In this document: positions 12,878-32,083 of the stretch, one piece after another
How positions within the stretch are numbered: the first letter of the stretch is position 1
Layout: each line of letters starts with the position of its first letter
Assembly (NCBI GenBank): GCA_018815245.1
Contig: JAHIXK010000014.1
Span: 208,508-272,507 of the forward strand
Source: Gammaproteobacteria bacterium
GTDB lineage: Bacteria; Pseudomonadota; Gammaproteobacteria; Burkholderiales; Burkholderiaceae_B
Length of the DNA: 64,000 nt
Direction of reading: 5' to 3'
The notes under the pieces: model-generated
Told to the model about the DNA's origin: nothing
What the model saw: only the letters and a program-made list of their open reading frames with translations
The model's database searches: none
Position numbers and translations under genes: made by a program

Positions 12878-14992
12878 TTGCAAACCCATCGCCGTGCGTG
12901 CCATTTGTGCGAAGCCATTTGTGGCCTGAAAATCGAAGTGGAAAACAATCAGGTCGTTTCCATCAAGGGTGATGAGCAAGACCCTTTCAGCCGCGGGCAT
13001 ATTTGCCCCAAAGCGGTTGCGCTGAAAGACATTCAGGAAGATTCGGACCGCTTGCGCATGCCTGTCAAAAAGGTCAATGGGGTTTGGGTAGAAACCACTT
13101 GGGATGACGCCATTGAGCTGGCCTGCGAGGGGCTGTTTCAAATCCAGCAAAAGTACGGTGCCAATGCCGTGGGCGTTTACCAAGGCAACCCGAATGTGCA
13201 CAACTGGGGTTTGATGACCCACAGCGCCAACTTTCTGGGTCTGCTGAAAACACGCAACCGGTTTTCCGCCACCTCGGTGGATCAGTTGCCCATGCAATTG
13301 CTTGCGTACTGGATGTTTGGCCACCAATTGTTGATCACGATCCCCGACATCGACCACACTGATTATTTCCTGATGTTGGGCGCCAACCCGATCGCATCCA
13401 ACGGCAGCCTGATGACCGTGCCTGATGTGGCCAAGCGCATCAAAGCCCTGCAAAGCCGGGGCGGCAAGTTGGTGTTGATTGATCCTCGCCGAACCGAAAC
13501 AGCCGAAGTTGCCGACACACACCATTTCATCAAACCCGCCGGCGACGCAGCATTTTTGTTTGCCGTGATCAATACCATTGTGGCCGAGGGTCTGACCCGG
13601 CTGGATCGTTTGGCCCCCTTCACGGAGGGCTTGTATACGGCATTGGGCGCAATCTCAAAAGTGACCCCGGAAGTGGCGCAGGCCGAATGTGGAATCCCGG
13701 CAGGCACCATTCGCCAAATTGCCCGCGATTTCGCCAATGCCGGGAAAGCGGTTGCTTATGGCCGCATGGGTGCCTGCACGCAACGCCATGGAACCCTGGC
13801 GCAGTGGGGCATTCAATTGCTGAACCTGATCACGGGCAACACAGACCGCCCTGGCGGTAGCCTGTTGGCCAGCCCTGCACTTGACTTGATCGCAGCACCC
13901 AGCAGCAAGCCGGGCAGTTACGGGCGGTGGCACAGCCGTGTCAGCAACAAGCCAGAAGCGTTGGGTGAATTTCCCAGCGCCATCATTGCCGAGGAAATTC
14001 AAACCGGGGGGGAAGGGCAGATCAAAGCACTGGTGACAGTTGCTGGCAACCCGGTTTTGTCGACACCAAACGGCCAGCAGCTCGACAAGGCAATTTCAGG
14101 CCTTGAATTCATGGTGTCAGTTGACCTGTACATCAATGAAACCAATCGACATGCGAATGTAATTTTGCCCACCAGCGGCCCGCTGGAACATGACCACTAC
14201 GACTTGATTTTCAATATTTTTGGTGTGCGCAACCAGGCCAAATACAGCGCTGCAACTTTGCCCAAACCCGATGGCTGCCCAGACGACTGGGAACTGATGG
14301 ACAAACTGGCCGCTTGTTACGCCGCAAAACTGGGCAAACCGGTGCGCCCTTCCATGGCGCCGCAGGTGATCCTCGACATGGGGCTGCAAATGGGGCCCTA
14401 TGGCATGGCCAGTGAACACAAGCTAAGTTTGGACAAGTTGAAGCAGCACCCGGAGGGAATCGACCTGGGGCCACTTCGTCCAAGCTTCCCCGGCCGCCTG
14501 CAAACTGCTGACAAAACCATTCAGGCCGCCCCGGCGGAAGTATTGCAGGCGGCTGCCAGTTATGTGGTTGATCTGCTAAACCCCAGTGAACGCGCGGTTC
14601 ACGACATGATTTTGATTGGTCGTCGCCACATACGCAGCAACAATTCCTGGATGCACAATTCTGAACGGTTGGTGAAAGGCAAAAACCGTTGCACGGCCAT
14701 GCTGAATCCCGTGGACGCAGAAAGGTTGTTGCTGGTTGACGGTCAACAGGTGCGCGTAATCAGCAGAGTGGGTGAAATTAGCCTGCCGGTCGAAATTTCC
14801 GGGCATGTCATGCCTGGCGTAGTCAGCATTCCCCACGGTTGGGGGCACGACAAGAAAGGGATTCGGCAGCGCGTTGCTGCCGAACACGCAGGTGTTAGCT
14901 GCAACGATCTGACCGATGAACAATGGCTGGACGAACCCAGCGGCAATGCCGCCGTAAATGGTGTGCCGGTGAAGCTTGCTGCGGTGCCCTAA
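12878..14992 (+). CDS. Molybdopterin-dependent oxidoreductase (DMSO reductase family)
   Basis: A 704-residue catalytic subunit of the prokaryotic molybdopterin oxidoreductase superfamily. Four cysteines (C8, C11, C15, C43) bind an N-terminal 4Fe-4S cluster; the body carries the Mo-bis-MGD binding domains and the C-terminal molydopterin dinucleotide-binding domain starts near residue 570 (HDMILIGRRHIRSNNSWMHN). The TTG start at 12878 is chosen because AAGGAG lies eight bases upstream and the cysteine motif follows at once. There is no Tat signal, so the enzyme is cytoplasmic. No electron-transfer subunit or chaperone is adjacent, and the substrate cannot be told from the sequence. The molybdenum-ligand position appears not to be selenocysteine. 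Confidence 0.85.
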   Translation: MQTHRRACHLCEAICGLKIEVENNQVVSIKGDEQDPFSRGHICPKAVALKDIQEDSDRLRMPVKKVNGVWVETTWDDAIELACEGLFQIQQKYGANAVGVYQGNPNVHNWGLMTHSANFLGLLKTRNRFSATSVDQLPMQLLAYWMFGHQLLITIPDIDHTDYFLMLGANPIASNGSLMTVPDVAKRIKALQSRGGKLVLIDPRRTETAEVADTHHFIKPAGDAAFLFAVINTIVAEGLTRLDRLAPFTEGLYTALGAISKVTPEVAQAECGIPAGTIRQIARDFANAGKAVAYGRMGACTQRHGTLAQWGIQLLNLITGNTDRPGGSLLASPALDLIAAPSSKPGSYGRWHSRVSNKPEALGEFPSAIIAEEIQTGGEGQIKALVTVAGNPVLSTPNGQQLDKAISGLEFMVSVDLYINETNRHANVILPTSGPLEHDHYDLIFNIFGVRNQAKYSAATLPKPDGCPDDWELMDKLAACYAAKLGKPVRPSMAPQVILDMGLQMGPYGMASEHKLSLDKLKQHPEGIDLGPLRPSFPGRLQTADKTIQAAPAEVLQAAASYVVDLLNPSERAVHDMILIGRRHIRSNNSWMHNSERLVKGKNRCTAMLNPVDAERLLLVDGQQVRVISRVGEISLPVEISGHVMPGVVSIPHGWGHDKKGIRQRVAAEHAGVSCNDLTDEQWLDEPSGNAAVNGVPVKLAAVP

Positions 14993-15738
14993 CCGCCCCG
15001 CCGTTCCCACACGCTCATCTCAGCAATGCTGTGCTGAAATTTGCGCGAGGTTTCCCGAATGACAAAGGGCACGTCACGTGGGGCGGCAAGCAGTTTAAAG
15101 TGCGGTTCAAGTACAGTTTGCATGCCCTGCAAAACCGTGCGTGGTTCGCCGTTCACAGTCAAACCGCCAATCCAGTTTTGTTTGGGCGTGTACTCGGTCA
15201 ACAAGGTGTAGGGCGAGCTGATCACCAACAGGCCGCCGGGCACAATGCGATGCGCAAGATCGCTTAAAAATGCACTTGGATTGTTCACCCGGTCAATTAA
15301 ATTACCCGCAAAAATCAAATCGTATTGGGTGTGTTCACTGCCCAGTTGGCAGGCGTCGCCCACTTCAAATTGAACCTTGTTTTTAACGCTTTCGAATTCT
15401 GTCGTTTTCAATGAAATCTCGACGGTGTGGCCCAGTTCGCCTTCATCGTGCAGATAATAGGGCAGCGTTTCGCCAAACTTCAGGCGATTGGCTGCGTCAA
15501 TGAAACGCGATGACAAATCAATTCCAAGCACTGCATCGAATCCTTTTGCCAGGTCGAAACTGCTGCGGCCCACTGCACAGCCCAAATCCAAAGCCTTTTG
15601 ACGGGGGCGCTTGCCCATGAATTCGATGCAAAGCTGCGCGCAATGTTCCGGGTAATTGGGCACATCAAAGTAAGCACTGCCGTAATGAAAAGCCAGGTAC
15701 TGGTTCAGTAGTTCATCGGTTTCGTAAGGGTTGTTCAT
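14989..15738 (-). CDS. SAM-dependent methyltransferase, OvoA C-terminal-like
   Basis: A 249-residue class I methyltransferase. The SAM-binding motif I is ALDLGCAVGRSS (from residue 49). The N-terminal pattern NPYETDELLNQYLAFHYG and the FDVPNYP segment match my recollection of the C-terminal methyltransferase domain of the ovothiol synthase OvoA, which methylates the N-pi of 4-mercaptohistidine; here the domain is a free-standing protein. It begins six bases after the stop of the sulfoxide synthase gene, so the two are almost certainly co-translated. Its last codons overlap the 3' end of the convergent molybdopterin gene by four bases. The acceptor is inferred from family and context, not shown. 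Confidence 0.75.
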   Translation of the reverse strand: MNNPYETDELLNQYLAFHYGSAYFDVPNYPEHCAQLCIEFMGKRPRQKALDLGCAVGRSSFDLAKGFDAVLGIDLSSRFIDAANRLKFGETLPYYLHDEGELGHTVEISLKTTEFESVKNKVQFEVGDACQLGSEHTQYDLIFAGNLIDRVNNPSAFLSDLAHRIVPGGLLVISSPYTLLTEYTPKQNWIGGLTVNGEPRTVLQGMQTVLEPHFKLLAAPRDVPFVIRETSRKFQHSIAEMSVWERRGG

Positions 15739-15744
15739 GTTGGT

Positions 15745-17040
15745 TTATTTTGCACAGGTTCGAAAGCCGACAAATACATCGTTTCTGTCGGGCAGGTAGG
15801 CTTGGCGGTAAGTGCCGCGAATCAGGATAGACGATGTGGCACAGGATCCGCCACGTACCACCTTGTGGTCACCAAATTGCAAGGTAGACATGAACGGGTA
15901 CATGTCCATCGTGAAGCCGTTGTAAGGGAAGAACAGGCTGTCAGTCCATTCCCACACCGTACCAATCATTTGCCTGCATCCGAAGGGGCTGTCGCCCTCA
16001 GGCAAAGCATGCACAGATTGACGGGCCAGCGCAGTGCTGTCCATGTCGACACGGTGGGGTTCCATCGTGTTGCCCCAAGGGAATTTGTTGAACACACCGT
16101 GTTCGTGATTGCCCAGGGCAGCCACTTCCCACTCAAATTCGGTTGGCAAGCGGCGGTCTGCAAAATTGCAGAAGGCTTGTGCTTCCCAATAGCTGACGTG
16201 CTTCACCGGGAAGTCGGGTTGCAGCGGCAACCATTGGTCGAAGTGGCGTTCCAGCCACTGGCCGTTTTCTTCTTTCCAGAACAGGGGGTGTCGCGCCCTG
16301 TTGCTGTTGCGCCACTTCAGGCCTGCCATGCCCCACAGCGCGTCATTGTTGTAACCACCCGCCTGCACAAAAGCCAGATATTCGGCGTTGCAAACCAGCG
16401 TGGGCGACATTCGAAACCTCTTGGTGTCGATCACAAAACCTGGTTTTTCATTGTCGAAACAAAAATCGTCGCCTGCGAAGTGCGCAGAATTTTCTGGCAT
16501 GCCAATTTTGTAGCGCCCGGCCGGAATTTCCACATCGCCCGGAATGCTGCTGTTGACTGGCGCTGCGTAATTGATACTGCTTGCGCCCGGTGGTGGCGCG
16601 TAGGCCAGCGTTTGCCTGCACCACACCATCGACTCGATGTGCATGTTCAAATGGAAGATGGCGTACTTGTACAGGTACAAGTCAGGCTGGGTTAGCGGCT
16701 TTTCGAGGATCCGGTTTCTAACCCTTGAAAAAATGCGCTCAAAGTAGAGCAGGGTATCGGGCTTGTCGGGAAACAGGTCGGCTTGCCAACGGTCCTCGTG
16801 GGCCAACTCAAAAGAATCCCAGATATCGTCCAGCGCCGGGTTGTACGACGACACCTTGTCCAGGTTCTGCAAAATAAAGCGTTCGAAGAAAAAAGCCGCG
16901 TGTCCCACCTCCCAGACAGGCGGGTTGATGCCAGGGAAATAAGGCACCTTGATCTGCTCGTCATTCAGGCTGTTCAGCAGCGCAAGGGCGCGTTCACGGC
17001 TTTGATCTAGTGCGGAAAGCAAGGTTTGCTGGTCATTCAT
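15745..17040 (-). CDS. Non-heme iron sulfoxide synthase (EgtB/OvoA/SenA superfamily)
   Basis: A 431-residue protein with an N-terminal DinB-like four-helix domain and a C-terminal formylglycine-generating-enzyme-like domain (from about residue 165). Iron ligands are predicted at His47 (EVGHAAFF), His130 and His134 in the H-x3-H-x-E motif HLNMHIE; the spacings of 83 and 4 residues equal those of characterised EgtB. Such enzymes join a thiol or selenol to the imidazole ring of histidine or hercynine. With a coupled OvoA-type methyltransferase and no EgtD nearby, an ovothiol-like product is the best guess; EgtB- or SenA-type activity cannot be excluded. I prefer the ATG at 17040 because TATAAT overlaps the upstream ATG at 17073. 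Confidence 0.78.
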   Translation of the reverse strand: MNDQQTLLSALDQSRERALALLNSLNDEQIKVPYFPGINPPVWEVGHAAFFFERFILQNLDKVSSYNPALDDIWDSFELAHEDRWQADLFPDKPDTLLYFERIFSRVRNRILEKPLTQPDLYLYKYAIFHLNMHIESMVWCRQTLAYAPPPGASSINYAAPVNSSIPGDVEIPAGRYKIGMPENSAHFAGDDFCFDNEKPGFVIDTKRFRMSPTLVCNAEYLAFVQAGGYNNDALWGMAGLKWRNSNRARHPLFWKEENGQWLERHFDQWLPLQPDFPVKHVSYWEAQAFCNFADRRLPTEFEWEVAALGNHEHGVFNKFPWGNTMEPHRVDMDSTALARQSVHALPEGDSPFGCRQMIGTVWEWTDSLFFPYNGFTMDMYPFMSTLQFGDHKVVRGGSCATSSILIRGTYRQAYLPDRNDVFVGFRTCAK

Positions 17041-17071
17041 GGCGGGCGTAACGCAAGTACTACTTGAATGC

Positions 17072-17077
17072 ATTATA
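17072..17077 (-). promoter_or_regulatory. -10 element for the sulfoxide synthase operon
   Basis: Perfect TATAAT on the minus strand, 31 bases before the preferred start at 17040. It overlaps the upstream in-frame ATG (17073), which argues against use of that codon. No equally good -35 element is seen at standard spacing. Confidence 0.45.
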
Positions 17078-17149: not shown

Positions 17150-17695
17150 ATGAACCTCCCTTCCATCTCTCGCAGCGTGATAGTGGCCATGGCCACACTC
17201 GTGATTGCCTGCAACAGTGCTTATGCCGAAAAACCTGAAAAAGGAAATGGCAATGGCAATGGCAATGGCAATTCAGGAAAGAACAAGTCCGAACAGCAAC
17301 ACAAACGTGGCGGCGGGCCCGATCAGGGTGGCAAAAAAGCTGACAAGGGCACAGGCAAAAACTCGGAGACAAGCAATGTATCGGTGTCGTTCAACTTTGG
17401 TCGCAGCGAAACCAGCATTGTGCGCGACTATTACGGTGGTCAGGTTGCCAAAGGCAAGTGCCCACCCGGTTTGGCCAAAAAGGGCAATGGCTGCCAGCCC
17501 CCCGGGCAGGCAAAGCAATGGCAAAAGGGTCGTGCTTTGGGCAGCGATGTTCGCTACTACGATATACCCAATGAACTGAGAATTCGCCTGCCAGTACCGC
17601 CGCTGAATCACAAATACGTGCAACTGGGCACCGACCTGTTGTTGATCGCCGTGGGTACCGCCATTGTGGTGGATGCGGTTGACGGGATTTTCTAA
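17150..17695 (+). CDS. CigR/RcnB-like secreted protein
   Basis: A 181-residue exported protein with a signal peptide ending ACNSAYA. A low-complexity Gly/Asn/Lys-rich region (residues about 26-75) is followed by a conserved block: CPPGLAKKGNGCQPPGQAKQW, then YYDIPNELRIRLP and LLLIAVGTAIVVDAV. That block is the pattern of the CigR / RcnB-type family, which includes an anti-virulence regulator and a nickel-cobalt homeostasis protein; the exact role here is unknown. The ATG at 17150 has AAGGAA six bases upstream. It is divergent from the sulfoxide synthase. Four in-frame GGCAAT units (17249-17272) encode the Asn-Gly run. Confidence 0.72.
   Translation: MNLPSISRSVIVAMATLVIACNSAYAEKPEKGNGNGNGNGNSGKNKSEQQHKRGGGPDQGGKKADKGTGKNSETSNVSVSFNFGRSETSIVRDYYGGQVAKGKCPPGLAKKGNGCQPPGQAKQWQKGRALGSDVRYYDIPNELRIRLPVPPLNHKYVQLGTDLLLIAVGTAIVVDAVDGIF
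17249..17272 (+). repeat. Hexanucleotide tandem repeat GGCAAT x4
   Basis: Four perfect GGCAAT units, preceded by one imperfect unit GGAAAT, inside the CigR-like gene. Copy changes would add or remove Gly-Asn pairs without shifting the frame. Confidence 0.85.
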
Positions 17696-17869: not shown

Positions 17870-19102
17870 TCAGACCAAAGACGTCAATTCGATATCTAGA
17901 TCGCTCAACTCCTCAGCATTAACGTTCTTGCCTTTGTAGACTAGCTGCTTGCCGACCATAAAAGCCATGGGCATGTTGACCGCGTCGACAGCGATAAGAC
18001 GGCCTTTCCGGATATAAAACACCGAAAATCCCTTGTCTATGGGATTTCCACGAACAACACGCTGATCATGATTCTGGGACAAGCCTACCATCTGCAAGCG
18101 AACGTTATATTGGTTCGACCAGAACCATGGAACGCAGTCGTACGGCTTGTCCTCTCCCATTAAAGTTGCCGCGGCGGTACGTGCCTGTTCAACGGCGTTG
18201 GCGACCGATTCAACCCGTTGCAGCTGTTCGAAAAAAAGATTCCGGTGACGGGTACAGTCGCCGATTGCCAGGATGGCGGGATCATTGCTGCGAGTATGTT
18301 CGTCCACCAAAATTCCTCCATCACAGGCCAGGCCAGCGGCCTCGGCCAGTGCAGTTTCTGGTGTAACGCCAACGGAGACCAGCACAATATCGGCTGGCAC
18401 GGTGCAGCCGTCTGATATGGTTACGCCAGCGACATGGCCGAAGCCGTCAGTCTTGAAGCTGGATACAGTAGAGCCTAATCGCACGTCCACGCCCGCGTCA
18501 CGATGCTTGTCGTAAAAGAATGCAGAGATCTCCGGACCTGTGACTCGTTGCAATAGTCGCTCGGAGGCTTCCAACACCGTGACGTCCAGACCTGTTTTGA
18601 CGGCGATGGCCGCTACCTCCAAGCCGATGTAGCCACCACCAACAATTACCAGTCGTTTATCAGGGCTTAACTGTTGTCGTAGGATATCCGTATCGGCTAT
18701 ATCGTGTAGGTAATGAATTCCTTTCAAGTCTGCGCCAGGAACTTCGAGGCGTCGGACTCGTGATCCGGTGGCCAAGACGAGCTGGTCGTATTTTAAAACG
18801 CTCTGGTCCGACAGCCGAATGGTCTTGTTGTTCCGATGAACTTGCTCGACACTCACGCCTAGGCGCAGTTGGTAGCCTGCGCTCTCGTACACTGACAACG
18901 GCTTGAGGTACAACGATTCCCTGTCAACATTACCCGCCAGATAATTTTTCGACAGTGGTGGACGCTGGTACGGAGGGTAGGGCTCATCCCCTACCAACAC
19001 CACTTCGTGTGGGTATTGCTTCTGAATCAGAGTGGTAAGTAGTGCGCCTGCTGCATGCCCACCCCCAACGATTACCGTTGTCTTTTTTTCTTTTGTTGTC
19101 AT
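17870..19102 (-). CDS. FAD-dependent ferredoxin reductase (rhodocoxin/putidaredoxin reductase type)
   Basis: A 410-residue flavoprotein that passes electrons from NAD(P)H to the 2Fe-2S ferredoxin encoded two genes upstream. The FAD-binding motif is near the N-terminus (VIVGGGHAAGALL), the NAD(P)-binding motif is LVIVGGGYIGLEVA, and the second FAD motif is ILAIGDCTRH; the C-terminal reductase domain follows. ATG 19102 is chosen, with GGAG nine bases upstream, over a TTG five codons earlier. It is the last gene of the ferredoxin-P450-reductase operon, 141 bases after the P450. All three components of a class I bacterial P450 chain are thus present. Confidence 0.88.
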   Translation of the reverse strand: MTTKEKKTTVIVGGGHAAGALLTTLIQKQYPHEVVLVGDEPYPPYQRPPLSKNYLAGNVDRESLYLKPLSVYESAGYQLRLGVSVEQVHRNNKTIRLSDQSVLKYDQLVLATGSRVRRLEVPGADLKGIHYLHDIADTDILRQQLSPDKRLVIVGGGYIGLEVAAIAVKTGLDVTVLEASERLLQRVTGPEISAFFYDKHRDAGVDVRLGSTVSSFKTDGFGHVAGVTISDGCTVPADIVLVSVGVTPETALAEAAGLACDGGILVDEHTRSNDPAILAIGDCTRHRNLFFEQLQRVESVANAVEQARTAAATLMGEDKPYDCVPWFWSNQYNVRLQMVGLSQNHDQRVVRGNPIDKGFSVFYIRKGRLIAVDAVNMPMAFMVGKQLVYKGKNVNAEELSDLDIELTSLV

Positions 19103-19243
19103 CGCCTTTGTCTCCAAAAAGGCTATTGAGATCAGACTGTCCCGTAGGTCAATGGCTTCATAAATGCGACCCCACCTATCGAGTGAGTACCCTTTGCTTG
19201 ACCGAAAAGGAAATAACTAATCCTCTCTCTGCTCGGGCAACTT

Positions 19244-20653
19244 TTACGCGGGCGTCAGTTTAACCATCATCTCGGAATAGCCCCGTACGAAGTTCGACTG
19301 CACCCGATCAGGCTCGCCAACAACTTCTATATTTTCAAATCGCTTGAGCAATTCCTCCCACAGAATACGTAGTTGTAATTCGGCTAGGCGGTTGCCCATG
19401 CAACGGTGGACGCCGTAACCAAATGACAGGTGATTACGCGCGCCTGAGCGGTCAATGATGAATTGATCCGGATTCGCGAACTTGCGTTCGTCCCGATTTC
19501 CCGAGGCGTACCACATCACCACTCGATCCCCCTTTTTTATAGTTTTGCCGTTTAGTTCAACGTCCTGCTTGGCGACCCGACGCATATAAGCCAACGGTGT
19601 TTGCCAGCGAATGATTTCCGAAACCATGTTCGGAATCAGTTCCGGGTTTGCCTTCAGTTTTACGAACTCCTCTGGAAACTGGTTCATAGCCAGCAAGCCT
19701 CCGCTCATGGAGTTACGCGTGGTGTCATTACCGCCGACGATGAGTAGTGCAAGATTGCCAATAAACTCCATCGGACGGTTGATCAGATCACGTGTTTCCT
19801 CTCCACTTTGCAACAGACTAATCAAATCAAAGCCTGGCGCTTCACCAGCGGCGCGGCGCGCCTGCTTATCCCGCCAAAGTCTAGAAAAATCACGCGCCAT
19901 GTCGGCTGCCGCATCGAACATTGCTTCTTCGTCAGTAAATTCACCGCCGGTAGCTGATGCCGCGCCAGCGAGCAGATCCGACCAATAGATTAGTTTTTCA
20001 CGGTCGTCGTAAGGGAAATCCAGAAGGGTAGCCAGCATGCGCCCGGTCAATTCCTTTGATACCGTCGACACCCAGTCAAAGGGTTGGCCCAAGGGAAGGC
20101 TGTCGAGCACATCCCCTGTGCGAGAGCGTATCAAACCCTCCATTTCCTTCAGATTTTGCGGAGCTACCACACCTTGCACAGAGCTTCGCTGTGCATCGTG
20201 TTTTGGCGGATCCATGGCTATGAACATTTCCACCGACAGGCCTTCCGGAGGGTCACCCAAAATGATAACCGGTTCGGCGGAGAACAGTTCGTGATGTTTA
20301 TCCACGAACAGAATGTCTTCGTAGCGTGTCACTGACCAGAACGGGCCGAATTGGCTGTTTTTCTGGTAGTGCACCGGAGCCTCATCACGAAGCCGTTTGA
20401 AATAGGCGCGCCACTGCCCCTGCCGATATAAAAACGGATTGCTGACATCAATGTCTTCGAGGTTCAACGTGCCTACATCCGGAAGCGGTGTTTCGACAAA
20501 GTTGGGTATCGGCCTACGTGCGCCTATGGTCTTTTTCTTGGCCCTAATTAACAGCTTCAACCCCTGAATCTGCATATGCATTGGCAGTACTTTGGAGGTG
20601 GCGTTAATAACCCTCGTTTGAATTTCGTCAAATTTTTTGGATTGCGTTGACAT
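19244..20653 (-). CDS. Cytochrome P450, CYP153-type alkane hydroxylase
   Basis: A 469-residue soluble P450. The heme-binding loop is FGYGVHRCMG with the thiolate Cys near residue 418; the I-helix oxygen-activation motif is GGNDTTRN, and the ExxR region is EIIRW. The C-terminal stretch MGNRLAELQLRILWEEL and RVQSNFVRGYSEMMV, and the N-terminal QGQWRAYFKRLRDEAPVHY, match my knowledge of the CYP153 family, which hydroxylates the terminal carbon of medium-chain alkanes. It lies 15 bases after the ferredoxin gene. Specificity within CYP153 (alkanes, cycloalkanes, fatty acids, terpenes) cannot be told from sequence alone. Confidence 0.9.
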   Translation of the reverse strand: MSTQSKKFDEIQTRVINATSKVLPMHMQIQGLKLLIRAKKKTIGARRPIPNFVETPLPDVGTLNLEDIDVSNPFLYRQGQWRAYFKRLRDEAPVHYQKNSQFGPFWSVTRYEDILFVDKHHELFSAEPVIILGDPPEGLSVEMFIAMDPPKHDAQRSSVQGVVAPQNLKEMEGLIRSRTGDVLDSLPLGQPFDWVSTVSKELTGRMLATLLDFPYDDREKLIYWSDLLAGAASATGGEFTDEEAMFDAAADMARDFSRLWRDKQARRAAGEAPGFDLISLLQSGEETRDLINRPMEFIGNLALLIVGGNDTTRNSMSGGLLAMNQFPEEFVKLKANPELIPNMVSEIIRWQTPLAYMRRVAKQDVELNGKTIKKGDRVVMWYASGNRDERKFANPDQFIIDRSGARNHLSFGYGVHRCMGNRLAELQLRILWEELLKRFENIEVVGEPDRVQSNFVRGYSEMMVKLTPA

Positions 20654-20668
20654 GAAGTTCTCCGATGC

Positions 20669-20989
20669 TTACATCTGAAATTCGGGAAGGCGAACGGTCA
20701 TGCCGTCCATTGCCTCGGTGGTCTTTACCTGGCAGCCCAAGCGCGAAGTTTTTGTCCGCTCCGGGGTCATGGACAACATTTGCTCTTCATCATCGCCAGG
20801 AGCACCGGTCTTTTCGAACCACTCATCAGCGACGATGATGTGACAGGTGCCACAGGCGCATTCTCCTCCGCAGTCTCCATCGATGCCCGGAATGGCGTTA
20901 TCTACGGCGACTTGCATCAACGAGGATCCAACCTTGAATTCAATGACGTGTGTCGTGTCGTCATGCTCAATAAAGATAATTTTGCCCAA
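20669..20989 (-). CDS. 2Fe-2S ferredoxin (adrenodoxin type)
   Basis: A 106-residue ferredoxin that hands electrons to the P450. Cluster cysteines are C40, C46, C49 (C-x5-C-x2-C in DCGGECACGTCH) and C86 (RLGCQV). The TTG start at 20989 is chosen: GGAGAG lies five bases upstream and the protein then begins like family members (GKIIFIEHD); a frame extending 11 codons further would add a non-homologous leader. First gene of the operon with the P450 and reductase, divergent from the AraC-type regulator. Confidence 0.88.
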   Translation of the reverse strand: MGKIIFIEHDDTTHVIEFKVGSSLMQVAVDNAIPGIDGDCGGECACGTCHIIVADEWFEKTGAPGDDEEQMLSMTPERTKTSRLGCQVKTTEAMDGMTVRLPEFQM

Positions 20990-21053
20990 CGCTTCTCTCC
21001 TACGAGTAACTTGCTCTAGCAAAGATGTTAGATTGGCACCAATAAAGCGACTA

Positions 21054-24970: not shown

Positions 24971-25034
24971 TGTGGACAACCATCGGATTTGAGTTCGTGT
25001 AACAAAACATGCACTAAATATGAGGAGCGAAAAA

Positions 25035-26693
25035 ATGGACAGGCAAGCCCAATACGATTTTGTTGTGGTGGGAGCAGGCTCCTCAGGATGTGTTTTGGCA
25101 AACAGATTGACTGAAAATGGCAAATTCACGGTATTGCTGTTGGAGGCTGGTCCGAGCGACAAAACCAACCCATTCATTCACATGCCAGCGGGTATGGTTG
25201 GCCTCATGCACAGTCGTAAGTACAACTGGCGACTCTGGACTACGCCACAAACACATCTGAATAACCGTGTCCTGTTCCAACCACGTGGAAAAACGCTTGG
25301 AGGGTCAAGCTCAATTAATGCCTGTGTCTACATTCGCGGCCATGCAAGTGACTATGATCATTGGGCTGACCTGGGTTGCGAAGGCTGGTCATACAAAGAG
25401 CTACTCCCTTACTTTAAAAAGTCAGAAAATTTCCATCCAGCCCCTTTCTCCGCAGGTGTCAATCAAAAAGACCTGGAGGAATATCACGGTTCAGGCGGCC
25501 CATTGAATGTAGCCTCGCCCGACCATAGAAATCCACTTTCGCAGGCCTTCATCGAGGCGGGCGTGCAGGCCGGCTATGAAAGAAACCTGGATTTCAACGG
25601 AGCCAAACAAGGGGGCGTCGGACCCTACAGCGCTTATCACAAAGACGGCCAACGCTGGAGCAATTCTAGAGCTTATTTATGGTCAGCCATGTCCCGCCCC
25701 AATCTGACAATTCTGACCAATGCTCGGGCTGCCCGGATTTGCCTCGAGAACGGAAGGGCTTCTGGTGTGGAGTATTTTTATGAAGGCCAACTCTGCAAGG
25801 CACTGGCCAGGAAAGAAGTTATTTTGAGTGGTGGTGCTTTTAATTCCCCGCATCTGCTGATGTTGTCTGGAATTGGTCCATGGCAGGATGTACTGCACCA
25901 TAACATTCCGCCAACACATGAATTACCGGGTGTGGGTCGGAATTTGCAAGACCATTTGGATGTGTTTCTGGTGATGCGGACACGCAATCGTCTACCTATT
26001 TCCCTGCACCCTTTGTCTTGGTTGCGTTGGGTGTTTCAACTGGCCAAATATTTAATGTTCAAACGGGGTGAGCTGAGCAGCAACCTTGCTGAGTCCGGCG
26101 GTTTCGTGAAGTCCTCTGTAGAAGAACCAATAGAAGACTTGCAACTGCATTTTGTCGCGCTTCCGGCCATCCGGCATGGTTTGAATTTGTGGCCATTGTT
26201 TAAAAGTTATGCTTATTCCATCATGATCTATGACCTGCGTCCCCACTCCAAAGGAACGGTTAGGCTAGCAAGCTCAAACCCGCTAGACTTGCCTGTTGTG
26301 GATCCGAATTATGGCGAGCACCAAAGAGATATCGACCGGCTGGTCAAGGGAATTCGAATTGCGCGAAATATTGCCACTCAGCCTGCATTAGGAAGAATGA
26401 ATCGGGAAGAAATTTCGCCCGGGGAACACCTGCAAACCGACGAGGAACTGGAACAGTGGGTTAGGGAAACTGCCGAAACGGCCTACCACCCAGTTGGCAC
26501 TTGCAAAATGGGCACGGATGAAATGGCTGTCGTTGACCACCGGTTACGGGTGCATGGTTTAGCGAGTCTGCGAGTTGTTGATTGTTCAATTATGCCGACC
26601 TTGATCGGAGGCAACACCAATGCCGCAGCCACAATGATTGGAGAAAAGGCTGCCGCCATGATTCTTGAGGATCACAATCAAGAAAATGGCTAA
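25035..26693 (+). CDS. GMC-family FAD alcohol dehydrogenase (AlkJ/choline dehydrogenase-like)
   Basis: A 552-residue flavoprotein of the glucose-methanol-choline family. The FAD motif is FVVVGAGSSGCVLANRL at the N-terminus; the first GMC signature is PRGKTLGGSSSINACVYIRG; the second is SGGAFNSPHLLMLSGIG; the active-site His is in AYHPVGTCKMG and the C-terminal end has GGNTNAAATMIGEKAA. The size and motifs fit AlkJ-like membrane-associated dehydrogenases that oxidise aliphatic alcohols to aldehydes, the natural step after CYP153. ATG 25035 is chosen over 25020 because GAGGAG lies at the right distance before it. It lies 64 bases after the hydrolase gene. Confidence 0.87.
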   Translation: MDRQAQYDFVVVGAGSSGCVLANRLTENGKFTVLLLEAGPSDKTNPFIHMPAGMVGLMHSRKYNWRLWTTPQTHLNNRVLFQPRGKTLGGSSSINACVYIRGHASDYDHWADLGCEGWSYKELLPYFKKSENFHPAPFSAGVNQKDLEEYHGSGGPLNVASPDHRNPLSQAFIEAGVQAGYERNLDFNGAKQGGVGPYSAYHKDGQRWSNSRAYLWSAMSRPNLTILTNARAARICLENGRASGVEYFYEGQLCKALARKEVILSGGAFNSPHLLMLSGIGPWQDVLHHNIPPTHELPGVGRNLQDHLDVFLVMRTRNRLPISLHPLSWLRWVFQLAKYLMFKRGELSSNLAESGGFVKSSVEEPIEDLQLHFVALPAIRHGLNLWPLFKSYAYSIMIYDLRPHSKGTVRLASSNPLDLPVVDPNYGEHQRDIDRLVKGIRIARNIATQPALGRMNREEISPGEHLQTDEELEQWVRETAETAYHPVGTCKMGTDEMAVVDHRLRVHGLASLRVVDCSIMPTLIGGNTNAAATMIGEKAAAMILEDHNQENG

Positions 26694-27353: not shown

Positions 27354-27635
27354 ATGCCAGCAGCACAGCACAACAAGCTACTTGTGCCATTGAATCTGGG
27401 TTCCATGCACACCGTGCCTGAAGACGACGCCCCGGCCAAGCTGGCTTCATTTTTTGCACGAGGCGGCATCGCAGGCGTGAAGGGCAAGTCAGAGGCTGCC
27501 GCTTGCCCAATCACAATTTTTCAACGCAAGCCCAAGAAAATTGCCGGGCCCGGTAAAACCACCGGCTGGATTCACCGCGCTGCCCTGGATGCCAAAGAAG
27601 CCATCCAGGGCGCATGTTTGGCATCCACAGCGTGA
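27354..27635 (+). CDS. Small hypothetical protein, 93 residues
   Basis: A short frame with a good ribosome binding site (GAGGAA six bases before ATG). The product MPAAQHNKLLVPLNLGSMHT is hydrophilic and unrecognised, with no signal or domain. Its end overlaps the AraC gene start by 22 bases. It lies in a region of decayed genes, so it may be a remnant rather than a working gene. Confidence 0.35.
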   Translation: MPAAQHNKLLVPLNLGSMHTVPEDDAPAKLASFFARGGIAGVKGKSEAAACPITIFQRKPKKIAGPGKTTGWIHRAALDAKEAIQGACLASTA

Positions 27636-28645
27636 CGAATCAGGTTGTGTTTCCAACAGCCTACACGCGCACCCTCGCGCGTGAACAGGGGCTGGATCAC
27701 AAGGGCCAGCTTCTACTGTTGAAAGGCACTCGCCTTTCACCCGCCGATTTGCTTGAATTCAACAAGTACATTGATGCAGAAACGCAGGCTGTGATTGTGC
27801 GCAATGCCTTGCAACTGAGCAATAATCCAGTCTTGGGTTTGCGCTGGGGGGCCAACTTGCATTTGGCGGCGCACGGGCCTCTGGGTACCCTGATTGCTTC
27901 ATCACCCACCTTGGGCCATGCCTGGAAAGCCACTGAAAAATTTCATGATACGCGTGGTGGTTTTGCCCGCATGGAAGGCCACATTGCCAGCGATCACTTT
28001 GCGGTGATCATCAATATGGGCATTGAGCTGGATGAAGTAGGGCGTTTTTTTTGTGAAGCGGTGTTGGCCACCATGGTCAACCACCTGGGCATGATCATTG
28101 GCAATTCCAGCCCTGCGTTGCGAATTGAGTTGGCGTATTCGGCCCCTGCCTATGCAGAACAATACCCCGAATTTCTGCACGCGCCTTGTCTGTTTGGGAG
28201 GCCAAAAACAAAAATTGTGATTCCCCATGGCTTGGCCCTGATGCCCAATCCCATGGCCGACCCTGAAACCCACGACATGGCGCTGGCCCGTTGCGAACAA
28301 CTTTTACTCGAACAACGGCACCCTAGGAATTGGGCAGCAAGGGTTACTGAATTGCTACGTAGTAACCCCGGACAAATATGGACTTGCGAACAGGTGGCAA
28401 GCCACTTTCATTTATCCTCGCGCACCTTGATGCGCTACTTGCGCCATGAGTACACCAGCTACCAAACACTTCGCGACTCCGAACTAGCCCGGCAGGCCAA
28501 GCTCAGCCTGCTGGTTAGTAACAACTCCGTAGAATCAGTGGCTTTGAGTTTGGGATACCAAGAGGTGTCCAACTTTCGGCGGGCTTTTAAACGCTGGTTT
28601 GGCATATCGCCACAGGCCTTCATAGCGAGTAACAGGGTAAATTAA
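27614..28645 (+). CDS. Second AraC-family regulator
   Basis: A 343-residue AraC-type regulator with the same arabinose-binding-like N-terminal domain as the protein at 21127 and a clear C-terminal HTH pair: VASHFHLSSRTLMRYLRHEY and VALSLGYQEVSNFRRAFKRWFGISPQAF. The ATG at 27614 has no strong binding site; a GTG seven codons in is an alternative. It precedes an HSL-type esterase gene on the same strand by 60 bases and may control it together with the acyl-CoA synthetase further on. Confidence 0.85.
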   Translation: MFGIHSVTNQVVFPTAYTRTLAREQGLDHKGQLLLLKGTRLSPADLLEFNKYIDAETQAVIVRNALQLSNNPVLGLRWGANLHLAAHGPLGTLIASSPTLGHAWKATEKFHDTRGGFARMEGHIASDHFAVIINMGIELDEVGRFFCEAVLATMVNHLGMIIGNSSPALRIELAYSAPAYAEQYPEFLHAPCLFGRPKTKIVIPHGLALMPNPMADPETHDMALARCEQLLLEQRHPRNWAARVTELLRSNPGQIWTCEQVASHFHLSSRTLMRYLRHEYTSYQTLRDSELARQAKLSLLVSNNSVESVALSLGYQEVSNFRRAFKRWFGISPQAFIASNRVN

Positions 28646-29866: not shown

Positions 29867-30395
29867 ATGCAAAAGAATACACCCACGTGGGCCAGCCTTC
29901 GACCTTCAGATTTTAAGCCCGGGATGCCCACCGGTACTGATTTCACCGACCGAAAAACCATGGGTGTGTGTGCCGAGCAAATGGTGCAAAAATTCAAGGT
30001 GAGTCGCGAAGACAGCAACATTCAGAAGTTATTAACCACGCGCATCATCTTCCGCAAAGACGGCGTAATCACTGTCGCCGGTTCTTCCCGTTTTACTGAT
30101 GCCTCGGTCGCCTTGTTGGACACCAGTCTGGACGCCGCAAACAAGCTGGGTTTGCAGCCTTTTGCCGAGGCCGACTGTATCCATTCCCCAACTGTCGTTG
30201 CGAAACAAACTCAGCATGGCTGATATTGATGTGTGGGAACTGCGCGAGGCATTTGCCGCTCAAATACTGGTGAATCTCTCTTGCATGGCCCTCGAGGAAT
30301 TCGCAAATGAATATTATCAAGCTGTAGTATCCAGTTGTGCCGACGGAGGCTTCGGCGCGGCAATACTAATAAAAAACATGGGGACAAATACATGA
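29867..30395 (+). pseudogene. Thiolase (acetyl-CoA acyltransferase) remnant
   Basis: Two frames carry pieces of a thiolase. The first (29867-30223) has MGVCAEQMVQKFKVSRED and IFRKDGVITVAGSSRFTDASVALL, corresponding to the middle of FadI/AtoB-type enzymes. The second (30216-30395) has MADIDVWELREAFAAQILVNL and CADGGFGAAILI, the C-terminal part with the usual EAFAAQ block and the glycine-rich end. The N-terminal third with the active-site cysteine and the central linker are missing, so it is inactive. It ends at the start of the acyl-CoA synthetase gene. Confidence 0.7.
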
Positions 30396-32083
30396 GTGCA
30401 GCACAGTACGAAAAATTCGAAACCTTGCTGGATTGCCTGGACCATTGGGCGGCAACCCAACCGAATAAGGTTTACTTCACGCAGCCTTTTTCTGCCGATA
30501 AAACGGTCGACTACACTTGGGCCCAAGTGGCTGATCAGGTTAATCGAATAGCGGCTTACCTTCAATCATTGAACCTGCCCGAGAAAACCCACATTGGCAT
30601 TCTTGGAAAGAACAGCGCGCACTGGATCATGGCCGACCTAGCCATTTGGCGGGCAGGGCATGTGTCCATTCCCCTGTACCCTACGCTGAATGCCGAAACC
30701 GCAGAATATGTGTTGGACAACAGCGATTCCAAAATGATTTTTATCGGCAAGATGGATGAACTTTGGCGCGTGGTGGAGAGGGGTATTCCCACCGACATGC
30801 CCACTATCACCTTGCCGTTGGCACCGCAATTGGCCCATTCCAAGAAGTGGGACGACATCGTCGCGGCCACCGCACCTACAAAAAACCCGGTGAAACGAAA
30901 AAAAGACGAAATGGCCACCATGCTGTATACATCAGGCAGCACTGGCAAACCCAAAGGCGTCATGATTTCATTCAACGCCATGATCAGCGCGCTGCGTGGC
31001 ACATCGGAAGTGATGACATTCAGCAGCACCGATCGCATGATTTCCTATTTGCCATTGGCTCATGCCGCCGAGCGCGCAATTCTCGAAACCGGGTCGCTGT
31101 TCTACGGTTTTCATGTGTATTTCTCATTCGGGCTAGACAGCTTCATCCAAGACTTGCAACGCGCGCGGCCAACCCTGTTTTTCTCGGTGCCGCGCCTGTG
31201 GACCAAGTTTTACAACGGCATTTGCGGAAAAATTCCGCTCAGTGTGCAACAGATTATTTTCCGCATCCCGATTTTTTCCGGCTTGTTTAAAAAATTCCTG
31301 TTAAAGAAACTGGGCTTGTCAGAAGTGCGCATGGCGCTCAGTGGTTCTGCGCCCTTGGCACCCGCACTCATGTCGTGGTATCGAAATTTGGGCCTCGATT
31401 TGCTGGAAGGTTATGCCATGAGCGAGAACTTTGCCTATTCACATTGCAGCCTGCCCGGCAAGGTGCGCACGGGTTACGTGGGCAATACTTACCCCGGTGT
31501 GGAATGCAAAATTTCCGAGGCGGGTGAGGTGCTGGTAAAAAGCCCCTGCAACATGATGGGCTATTACAAAAACCTAGAACTCACCGCGCAGTCCTACACC
31601 GAAGACGGTTTCCTGAAAACAGGGGACATGGGCGTGATTGATGATCAGGGCCGCTTGAAAATTACAGGCCGCGTGAAAGAGTTATTCAAAACCAGCAAAG
31701 GCAAATACATTGCCCCTGTGCCCATTGAAAACCGTTTGAACGGCCATGAATTGATTGAAGCGGTGTGCGTAACAGGCCCTTCGTTTTCAAAACCCTTTGC
31801 CTTGGTCATGCTGCCGCTTGAAGAACACAAGCAAGTGGAGCAAAGCCCCAATGAAGCCGCGCGGGTTGAAAGCGAAATGACCGAATTACTTAACCATGTA
31901 AACGGACAGTTGGAAGCGCATGAAAAGCTGAGCTGTATTGTGGTGGTAAAAGACTTGTGGACTATGGAAAACGGCTTCCTGACACCCACCATGAAAATCA
32001 AGCGCAATGTGATTGAGCAACACTATTTGCCCAAGGCTGAAGGCTGGGTGGCCATGAAAAAGCCAGTGTTGATTGAGCAGTAA
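30392..32083 (+). CDS. Long-chain acyl-CoA synthetase (AMP-binding)
   Basis: A 563-residue adenylate-forming ligase that activates fatty acids with ATP and CoA. The AMP-binding P-loop is TMLYTSGSTGKPKGVM (from residue 177); the later core motifs are LEGYAMSENF and the hinge GRLKITGRVKELFKTSKGKYIAPVPIE. The text of the motifs and the length fit FadD15-like long-chain synthetases. The ATG at 30392 has GGGGAC upstream; the frame also continues 19 codons further upstream through the thiolase remnant. With the P450, alcohol dehydrogenase and thioesterases it would complete a path from alkane to acyl-CoA if an aldehyde dehydrogenase exists elsewhere. Confidence 0.88.
   Translation: MSAAQYEKFETLLDCLDHWAATQPNKVYFTQPFSADKTVDYTWAQVADQVNRIAAYLQSLNLPEKTHIGILGKNSAHWIMADLAIWRAGHVSIPLYPTLNAETAEYVLDNSDSKMIFIGKMDELWRVVERGIPTDMPTITLPLAPQLAHSKKWDDIVAATAPTKNPVKRKKDEMATMLYTSGSTGKPKGVMISFNAMISALRGTSEVMTFSSTDRMISYLPLAHAAERAILETGSLFYGFHVYFSFGLDSFIQDLQRARPTLFFSVPRLWTKFYNGICGKIPLSVQQIIFRIPIFSGLFKKFLLKKLGLSEVRMALSGSAPLAPALMSWYRNLGLDLLEGYAMSENFAYSHCSLPGKVRTGYVGNTYPGVECKISEAGEVLVKSPCNMMGYYKNLELTAQSYTEDGFLKTGDMGVIDDQGRLKITGRVKELFKTSKGKYIAPVPIENRLNGHELIEAVCVTGPSFSKPFALVMLPLEEHKQVEQSPNEAARVESEMTELLNHVNGQLEAHEKLSCIVVVKDLWTMENGFLTPTMKIKRNVIEQHYLPKAEGWVAMKKPVLIEQ

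Follow-up and report, generated by a model that had tools for sequence, protein, structure and literature searches.

A probable ovoselenol gene pair, unlinked to the selenosugar genes, in a Limnobacter-type genome

Results

A Synthase Gene Closely Followed by a Methyltransferase Gene

The window examined herein, meaning the whole stretch of 64,000 nucleotides that was analyzed, carries two closely spaced genes on its minus strand. An ovsA-type selenoxide synthase gene (15745..17040) is predicted to encode 431 amino acids counted from a conserved Met, and its product includes the OvsA-type residues M395, Q424, and A425. Six bases separate its stop codon from the ATG of an ovsM-type gene (14989..15738), which is predicted to encode a SAM-dependent N-methyltransferase of 249 amino acids. 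A preliminary description of this DNA had proposed separate genes for a sulfoxide synthase-type enzyme and for a methyltransferase resembling the C-terminus of OvoA, and both were found. Taken from its first ATG, the synthase reading frame spans 15745-17073 on the minus strand and encodes 442 amino acids. Because relatives begin at an internal Met (Met12), the start is most likely at 17040, which favors the gene boundary originally given.

Profile searches revealed DinB_2 and FGE-sulfatase domains in the synthase. The methyltransferase scores 297.5 bits (cut-off 170) on TIGR04345 (ovoA_Cterm), in keeping with the OvoA likeness noticed earlier, on a model that does not distinguish OvsM proteins from OvoA domains. 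A molybdopterin oxidoreductase gene (12878-14992) runs toward the methyltransferase gene, and the two 3′ ends overlap by four bases.

On the other side of the pair, a small protein with weak likeness to CigR and RcnB, under both cut-offs, is encoded divergently from ovsA at 17150-17695 on the plus strand, and by eye a counterpart occupies the same place at loci L013 and L019. Genes for a ferredoxin reductase, a cytochrome P450, and a ferredoxin then follow in a row on the minus strand (17870-21022). Beyond this row are a GMC oxidoreductase (25020-26693), an AraC-type regulator (27614-28645), and an AMP-binding enzyme (30335-32083). Judged by their likely functions, these genes may make up a pathway that oxidizes a hydrocarbon or a terpene.

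The methyltransferase gene lies directly behind the synthase gene in 10 of 13 same-genus genomes that carry the synthase, with the genome under study counted among them. Of 80 named OvsA loci taken from other records, which include some of the same genus, 34 likewise have it in the flank. These loci are the best 80 of 138 relatives and come from Limnobacter, Marinobacter, Halomonas/Vreelandella, Marinimicrobium, and others, and the flanks cover up to 6 kb, with shorter stretches at some contig ends. Because the arrangement is repeated in both sets, the pairing is not due to chance.

The Synthase Belongs with OvsA Proteins

Compared with proteins of solved structure, the synthase matches OvsA (PDB 8u41) at 558 bits, SenA at 185, EgtB at 182, and OvoA at 113. 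The last three values agree with the original impression that the enzyme is nearer to SenA and EgtB than to OvoA. Among the curated models, it reaches 420.3 bits on the SenA model NF041186 (cut-off 420), but misses the cut-offs of the EgtB model TIGR03440 (280.5 versus 360) and of the OvoA N-terminal model TIGR04344 (128.8 versus 400).

In a tree of 73 rows, 29 OvsA rows chosen for spread form one clade with support of 99/100, with both the window protein and 8u41 inside it; named-locus rows were labeled OvsA when more than 50% identical to the window protein. The EgtB (14 rows, 100/99), SenA (13 rows, 89/98), and OvoA (12 rows, 100/100) proteins each fall on one side of a branch, in a tree for which the software flagged the joining of long branches, those of EgtB and OvoA, as well as an odd composition of some rows. 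Labels for SenA and EgtB were taken from model score, motif, and neighborhood, where the EgtB rows carry no EgtB model score. The 8u41 sequence is separated by a branch of zero length from a Vreelandella utahensis protein. A phylogeny of this kind had been suggested in the preliminary description, which held that a grouping of the synthase with the fused OvoA N-domains would speak against its proposal. This grouping was looked for in the tree and was not found.

The residues of the predicted active site point in the same direction. The three-histidine iron site (H58, H141, and H145 in the 442-residue numbering) is present in the window synthase and is retained in all groups, including 93 of 94 OvsA rows, where the remaining row is truncated at its N-terminus. 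Positions 395, 424, and 425 are Met, Gln, and Ala in all 94 of these rows, a count in which some Limnobacter genomes were entered under two identifiers. In contrast, positions 395 and 424 are Tyr and Asn in 13 of 13 SenA rows and 14 of 14 EgtB rows, and position 425 is Phe (nine rows) or Tyr (four rows) in SenA and Phe in EgtB. The 12 OvoA rows have Phe at 395, Tyr at 424 (11 rows, one gap), and Ala at 425 (nine rows, three gaps). In an OvsA variant deposited as 8ux5, the equivalents of the three positions are Tyr, Asn, and Phe, as compared by eye. We infer that the Met, Gln, and Ala residues decide which substrate is used. Given its sequence relationships, the window synthase is very probably a member of the OvsA selenoxide synthases already described.

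The Curated SenA Model Also Accepts OvsA Proteins

Although NF041186 is designated an "equivalog" model for SenA, it is passed by seven of nine OvsA proteins tested, and the other two reach 410 and 415 bits, just below the cut-off of 420. Proteins exceeding the cut-off are those of loci L092, L064, L126, L068, L067, L062, and L019, along with the window reading frame at 15745-17073. A score of 428 bits is reached by the V. utahensis counterpart of the crystallized OvsA, and scores of 420.0 to 438.6 place all 13 OvsA proteins from the genus at or above the cut-off. Because the counterpart of the crystallized OvsA passes as well, the 0.3-bit margin by which the window synthase exceeds the SenA cut-off is not decisive. 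It follows that automatic annotation may name ovoselenol synthases as selenoneine synthases. Curated models would name the present pair selenoneine synthase and putative ovothiol methyltransferase, and a function is now proposed for the pair.

The Methyltransferase Groups with OvsA-Adjacent Enzymes

Among solved structures, the methyltransferase is matched best by OvsM (PDB 9bxh, 282 bits), then by fused OvoA (253 bits) and OvoM (220 bits). In a tree built with a quick method, a single branch divides 37 OvsA-adjacent methyltransferases from 12 fused OvoA domains (SH-aLRT 100, computed without bootstrap and without a standalone OvoM row). The window protein groups with the OvsA-adjacent enzymes, away from the fused OvoA domains. 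Loci L052-L057 and L061 were omitted from this tree as supposed duplicates of genus genomes.

Genes for Selenium Supply Reside on Another Contig

The preliminary description stated that no EgtD or SenB gene is nearby, which holds for this locus but not for the genome (3.22 Mb, 96% complete), where our searches found both on another contig. A SenB gene, the only one over the cut-off in the genome, is located on contig 9 (461 bits, cut-off 300). Directly behind it, and overlapping its end, is a gene for an oxidoreductase/SelD fusion whose SelD domain scores 289-292 bits (cut-off 125). This fusion also matches TIGR04369 ("fusion_not_SelD") below its cut-off (454 versus 700), and this match counts against an ovoselenol function for the pair, as does the separation of SenB and the SelD fusion from the pair in this genome. 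An EgtD gene (350 bits, cut-off 291) lies about 2.2 kb before SenB, with an opposite-strand gene that has no profile match between them. Divergent from egtD is an ABC transporter whose binding protein scores 402 bits on the selenate transporter model TIGR04553 (cut-off 250). The resulting cluster (locus L133, contig 9, 129000-143000) thus comprises a putative selenate ABC transporter, EgtD, SenB, and the oxidoreductase/SelD fusion, and neither SenA nor OvsA is present in this stretch.

A second enzyme of the SenA type is encoded on contig 13 (422 bits, cut-off 420) and falls in the SenA clade. Searches of the same 96% complete genome found no fused OvoA and no SelA (0 of 1), and did find the selenouridine synthase SelU (330 bits). 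Since SelU is present, SelD is not dedicated to selenometabolites, and the idea that it serves them alone was rejected.

Distribution Across Other Genomes

Linkage of the supply genes to OvsA is uncommon elsewhere. SenB is in the flank at four of the 80 named OvsA loci and a SelD protein at seven, and OvsM is missing from the flank at 46; each of these counts against the assignment of an ovoselenol function. A TIGR04345 protein over the cut-off is encoded in the genomes of all 46 loci without flanking OvsM, compared to one of 14 named control genomes. Locus L127 shares its genome with L066, and the only such match there adjoins the OvsA of L066. In four genomes from this set (three of the Limnobacter type and a Marinobacter MAG), the only match is in a reading frame of fused-OvoA size. 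SenB was found in every OvsA genome searched, namely 49 of 49 (47 over the cut-off and two fragmentary) and 30 of 30, or 78 distinct genomes that are mostly Marinobacter and Limnobacter and were counted with kinship ignored. None of 14 control genomes yielded SenB at the same thresholds. Among 60 relatives, SenB is present in 13 of 13 with OvsA and in 11 of the 47 others, which include a few with weaker synthase matches (Fisher p 5e-7, kinship ignored). V. utahensis (L092, L108) carries SenB, OvsA, OvsM, and the SelD fusion together.

Within the genus, three genomes encode OvsA without an adjacent OvsM and have a fused OvoA (L013/L058 in G002, L019/L060 in G014, and L137/L059 in G008), as if OvsM had been lost. 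We considered whether fused OvoA and OvsM are alternatives in the genus. This was rejected, and there is no clean rule, because five genomes (G004, G006, G009, G011, and G013) carry both, and in G003 OvsM occurs along with fragments resembling OvoA.

Five gammaproteobacterial records (L069, L070, L071, L078, and L127) have a SenA-type gene near the OvsA gene. The SenA-type proteins of these records form their own branch beside SenA, and the one of the five that was tested, from L069, scores 479 bits on the SenA model.

Discussion

A Predicted Route to Ovoselenol

We assign a probability of about 0.9 to an identification of the pair as the ovsA and ovsM genes for ovoselenol synthesis. On the strength of sequence comparisons, the most likely arrangement in this Limnobacter-type bacterium is such a pathway fed by an unlinked selenosugar supply. 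Given the names deposited with the OvsA and OvsM structures (selenoxide synthase and 5-selenohistidine N-methyltransferase) and the mentions of ovoselenol in two papers, the likeliest course of its biosynthesis is that selenophosphate is used by SenB to make a selenosugar, OvsA couples the selenosugar to histidine, the sugar is lost, and OvsM carries out a methylation. In the present organism, the SelD fusion protein would supply selenophosphate, from which SenB would make the selenosugar. The window synthase, as a mononuclear three-histidine iron enzyme, would use O2 to join the selenium of this selenosugar to histidine, and loss of the sugar would then leave 5-selenohistidine. Methylation of the imidazole ring by the OvsM-type enzyme would yield ovoselenol, a selenium antioxidant. 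The same selenosugar probably also feeds the separate SenA, such that the cell likely makes both selenoneine and ovoselenol. The analysis establishes the protein families, the order of the genes, the conserved residues of the site, and the occurrence of the supply genes, and from these the substrates, the product, and the common use of the selenosugar are predicted.

The preliminary description instead proposed a split ovothiol-like pathway. On such a reading, the synthase would join histidine to cysteine, and ovothiol A would be completed by the methyltransferase. This proposal is consistent with the TIGR04345 score of the methyltransferase and with our failure to find a fused OvoA in the 96% complete genome. 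However, the synthase resembles OvsA far more than OvoA in structure matches, it falls well short of the cut-off of the OvoA N-terminal model, its clade is separate from that of OvoA, SenB accompanies OvsA in every genome searched, and OvsA is kept in eight of nine genus relatives that have a full-length fused OvoA. We therefore regard ovothiol synthesis by the pair as improbable. An even lower probability attaches to the view that a fused OvoA gene has simply split in two, which might be suggested by the adjacency of the two parts in OvoA order, given that the synthase groups with OvsA rather than with the 12 OvoA N-domains and that the methyltransferase splits from the 12 fused OvoA domains.

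On another reading, the synthase would act as a SenA and convert hercynine to selenoneine, with the methyltransferase being an unrelated neighbor or acting on selenoneine. The SenA model score and the EgtD gene in the genome are compatible with this, but the model is also passed by the V. utahensis counterpart of the crystallized OvsA, another SenA-clade enzyme is already encoded on contig 13, and OvsA and SenA are separate clades with different site residues. This reading appears quite unlikely, falling between the two OvoA-based proposals in probability. Model scores, structure matches, trees, and site residues led us to set aside both the split-OvoA and the SenA interpretations. The earlier interpretation is partly supported: a selenoneine relative was among its options, but the combination is most likely the OvsA and OvsM system of ovoselenol synthesis, which is already described, rather than a split and possibly new ovothiol pathway.

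An ovoselenol pathway with the OvsA selenoxide synthase was reportedly described by Kayrouz and colleagues in 2024 in Nature Chemistry. Ovoselenol is mentioned in excerpts of two papers (PMC13188914; PMC12631010), and the excerpt of the former cites Kayrouz et al. 2024, Nat Chem (10.1038/s41557-024-01600-2), on the pathway. Among the matches listed in literature searches, none naming Limnobacter was returned for this genus with selenoneine, ovothiol, or selenometabolite, and none was relevant by title for OvsA, OvsM, or selenoxide synthase. This is very probably an enzyme pair that has already been described, and the pathway is known rather than new.

The points of interest are modest: the selenosugar supply is unlinked and a SenA coexists with the pair. 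We tentatively suggest, while considering it rather doubtful, that one selenosugar supply gives rise to two products, selenoneine and ovoselenol, in one cell and, in addition, that the methyltransferase domain of OvoA finishes ovoselenol in OvsA genomes without a standalone OvsM. If the latter is true, one enzyme serves both the sulfur and the selenium route. Limnobacter is a candidate genus in which to seek the two selenium antioxidants within a single organism.

Comparison with Known Systems

The closest known system is that of OvsA from Vreelandella/Halomonas utahensis (PDB 8u41, 8u42), which is 56% identical to the window synthase and falls in the same clade. The three histidines, the Met, Gln, and Ala residues, and the kind of partner methyltransferase are common to both, whereas the window synthase lacks an insert of 14 columns seen in 8u41. 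Neighbors of the V. utahensis pair include SenB and the SelD fusion, which the present genome carries on another contig. For the methyltransferase, the best solved match is OvsM, a 5-selenohistidine N-methyltransferase (9bxh, as above), which among the loci compared is nearest to an OvsM from Marinimicrobium (71%), with the window protein being more distant.

The likeness to other systems is more limited. SenA, the selenoneine synthase (8k5i, 8ryz), shares the superfamily and the three-histidine site with the window synthase, but differs in its match of 185 bits, its separate clade, and its site residues. The window protein lies outside the SenA clade and lacks the SenA-type Tyr and Asn. SenA also needs a supply from SenB and SelD. 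Finally, the fused ovothiol synthase OvoA (8khq) has a methyltransferase domain that is homologous to the window methyltransferase (253 bits), but the enzyme is fused and its synthase domain belongs to a distant clade.
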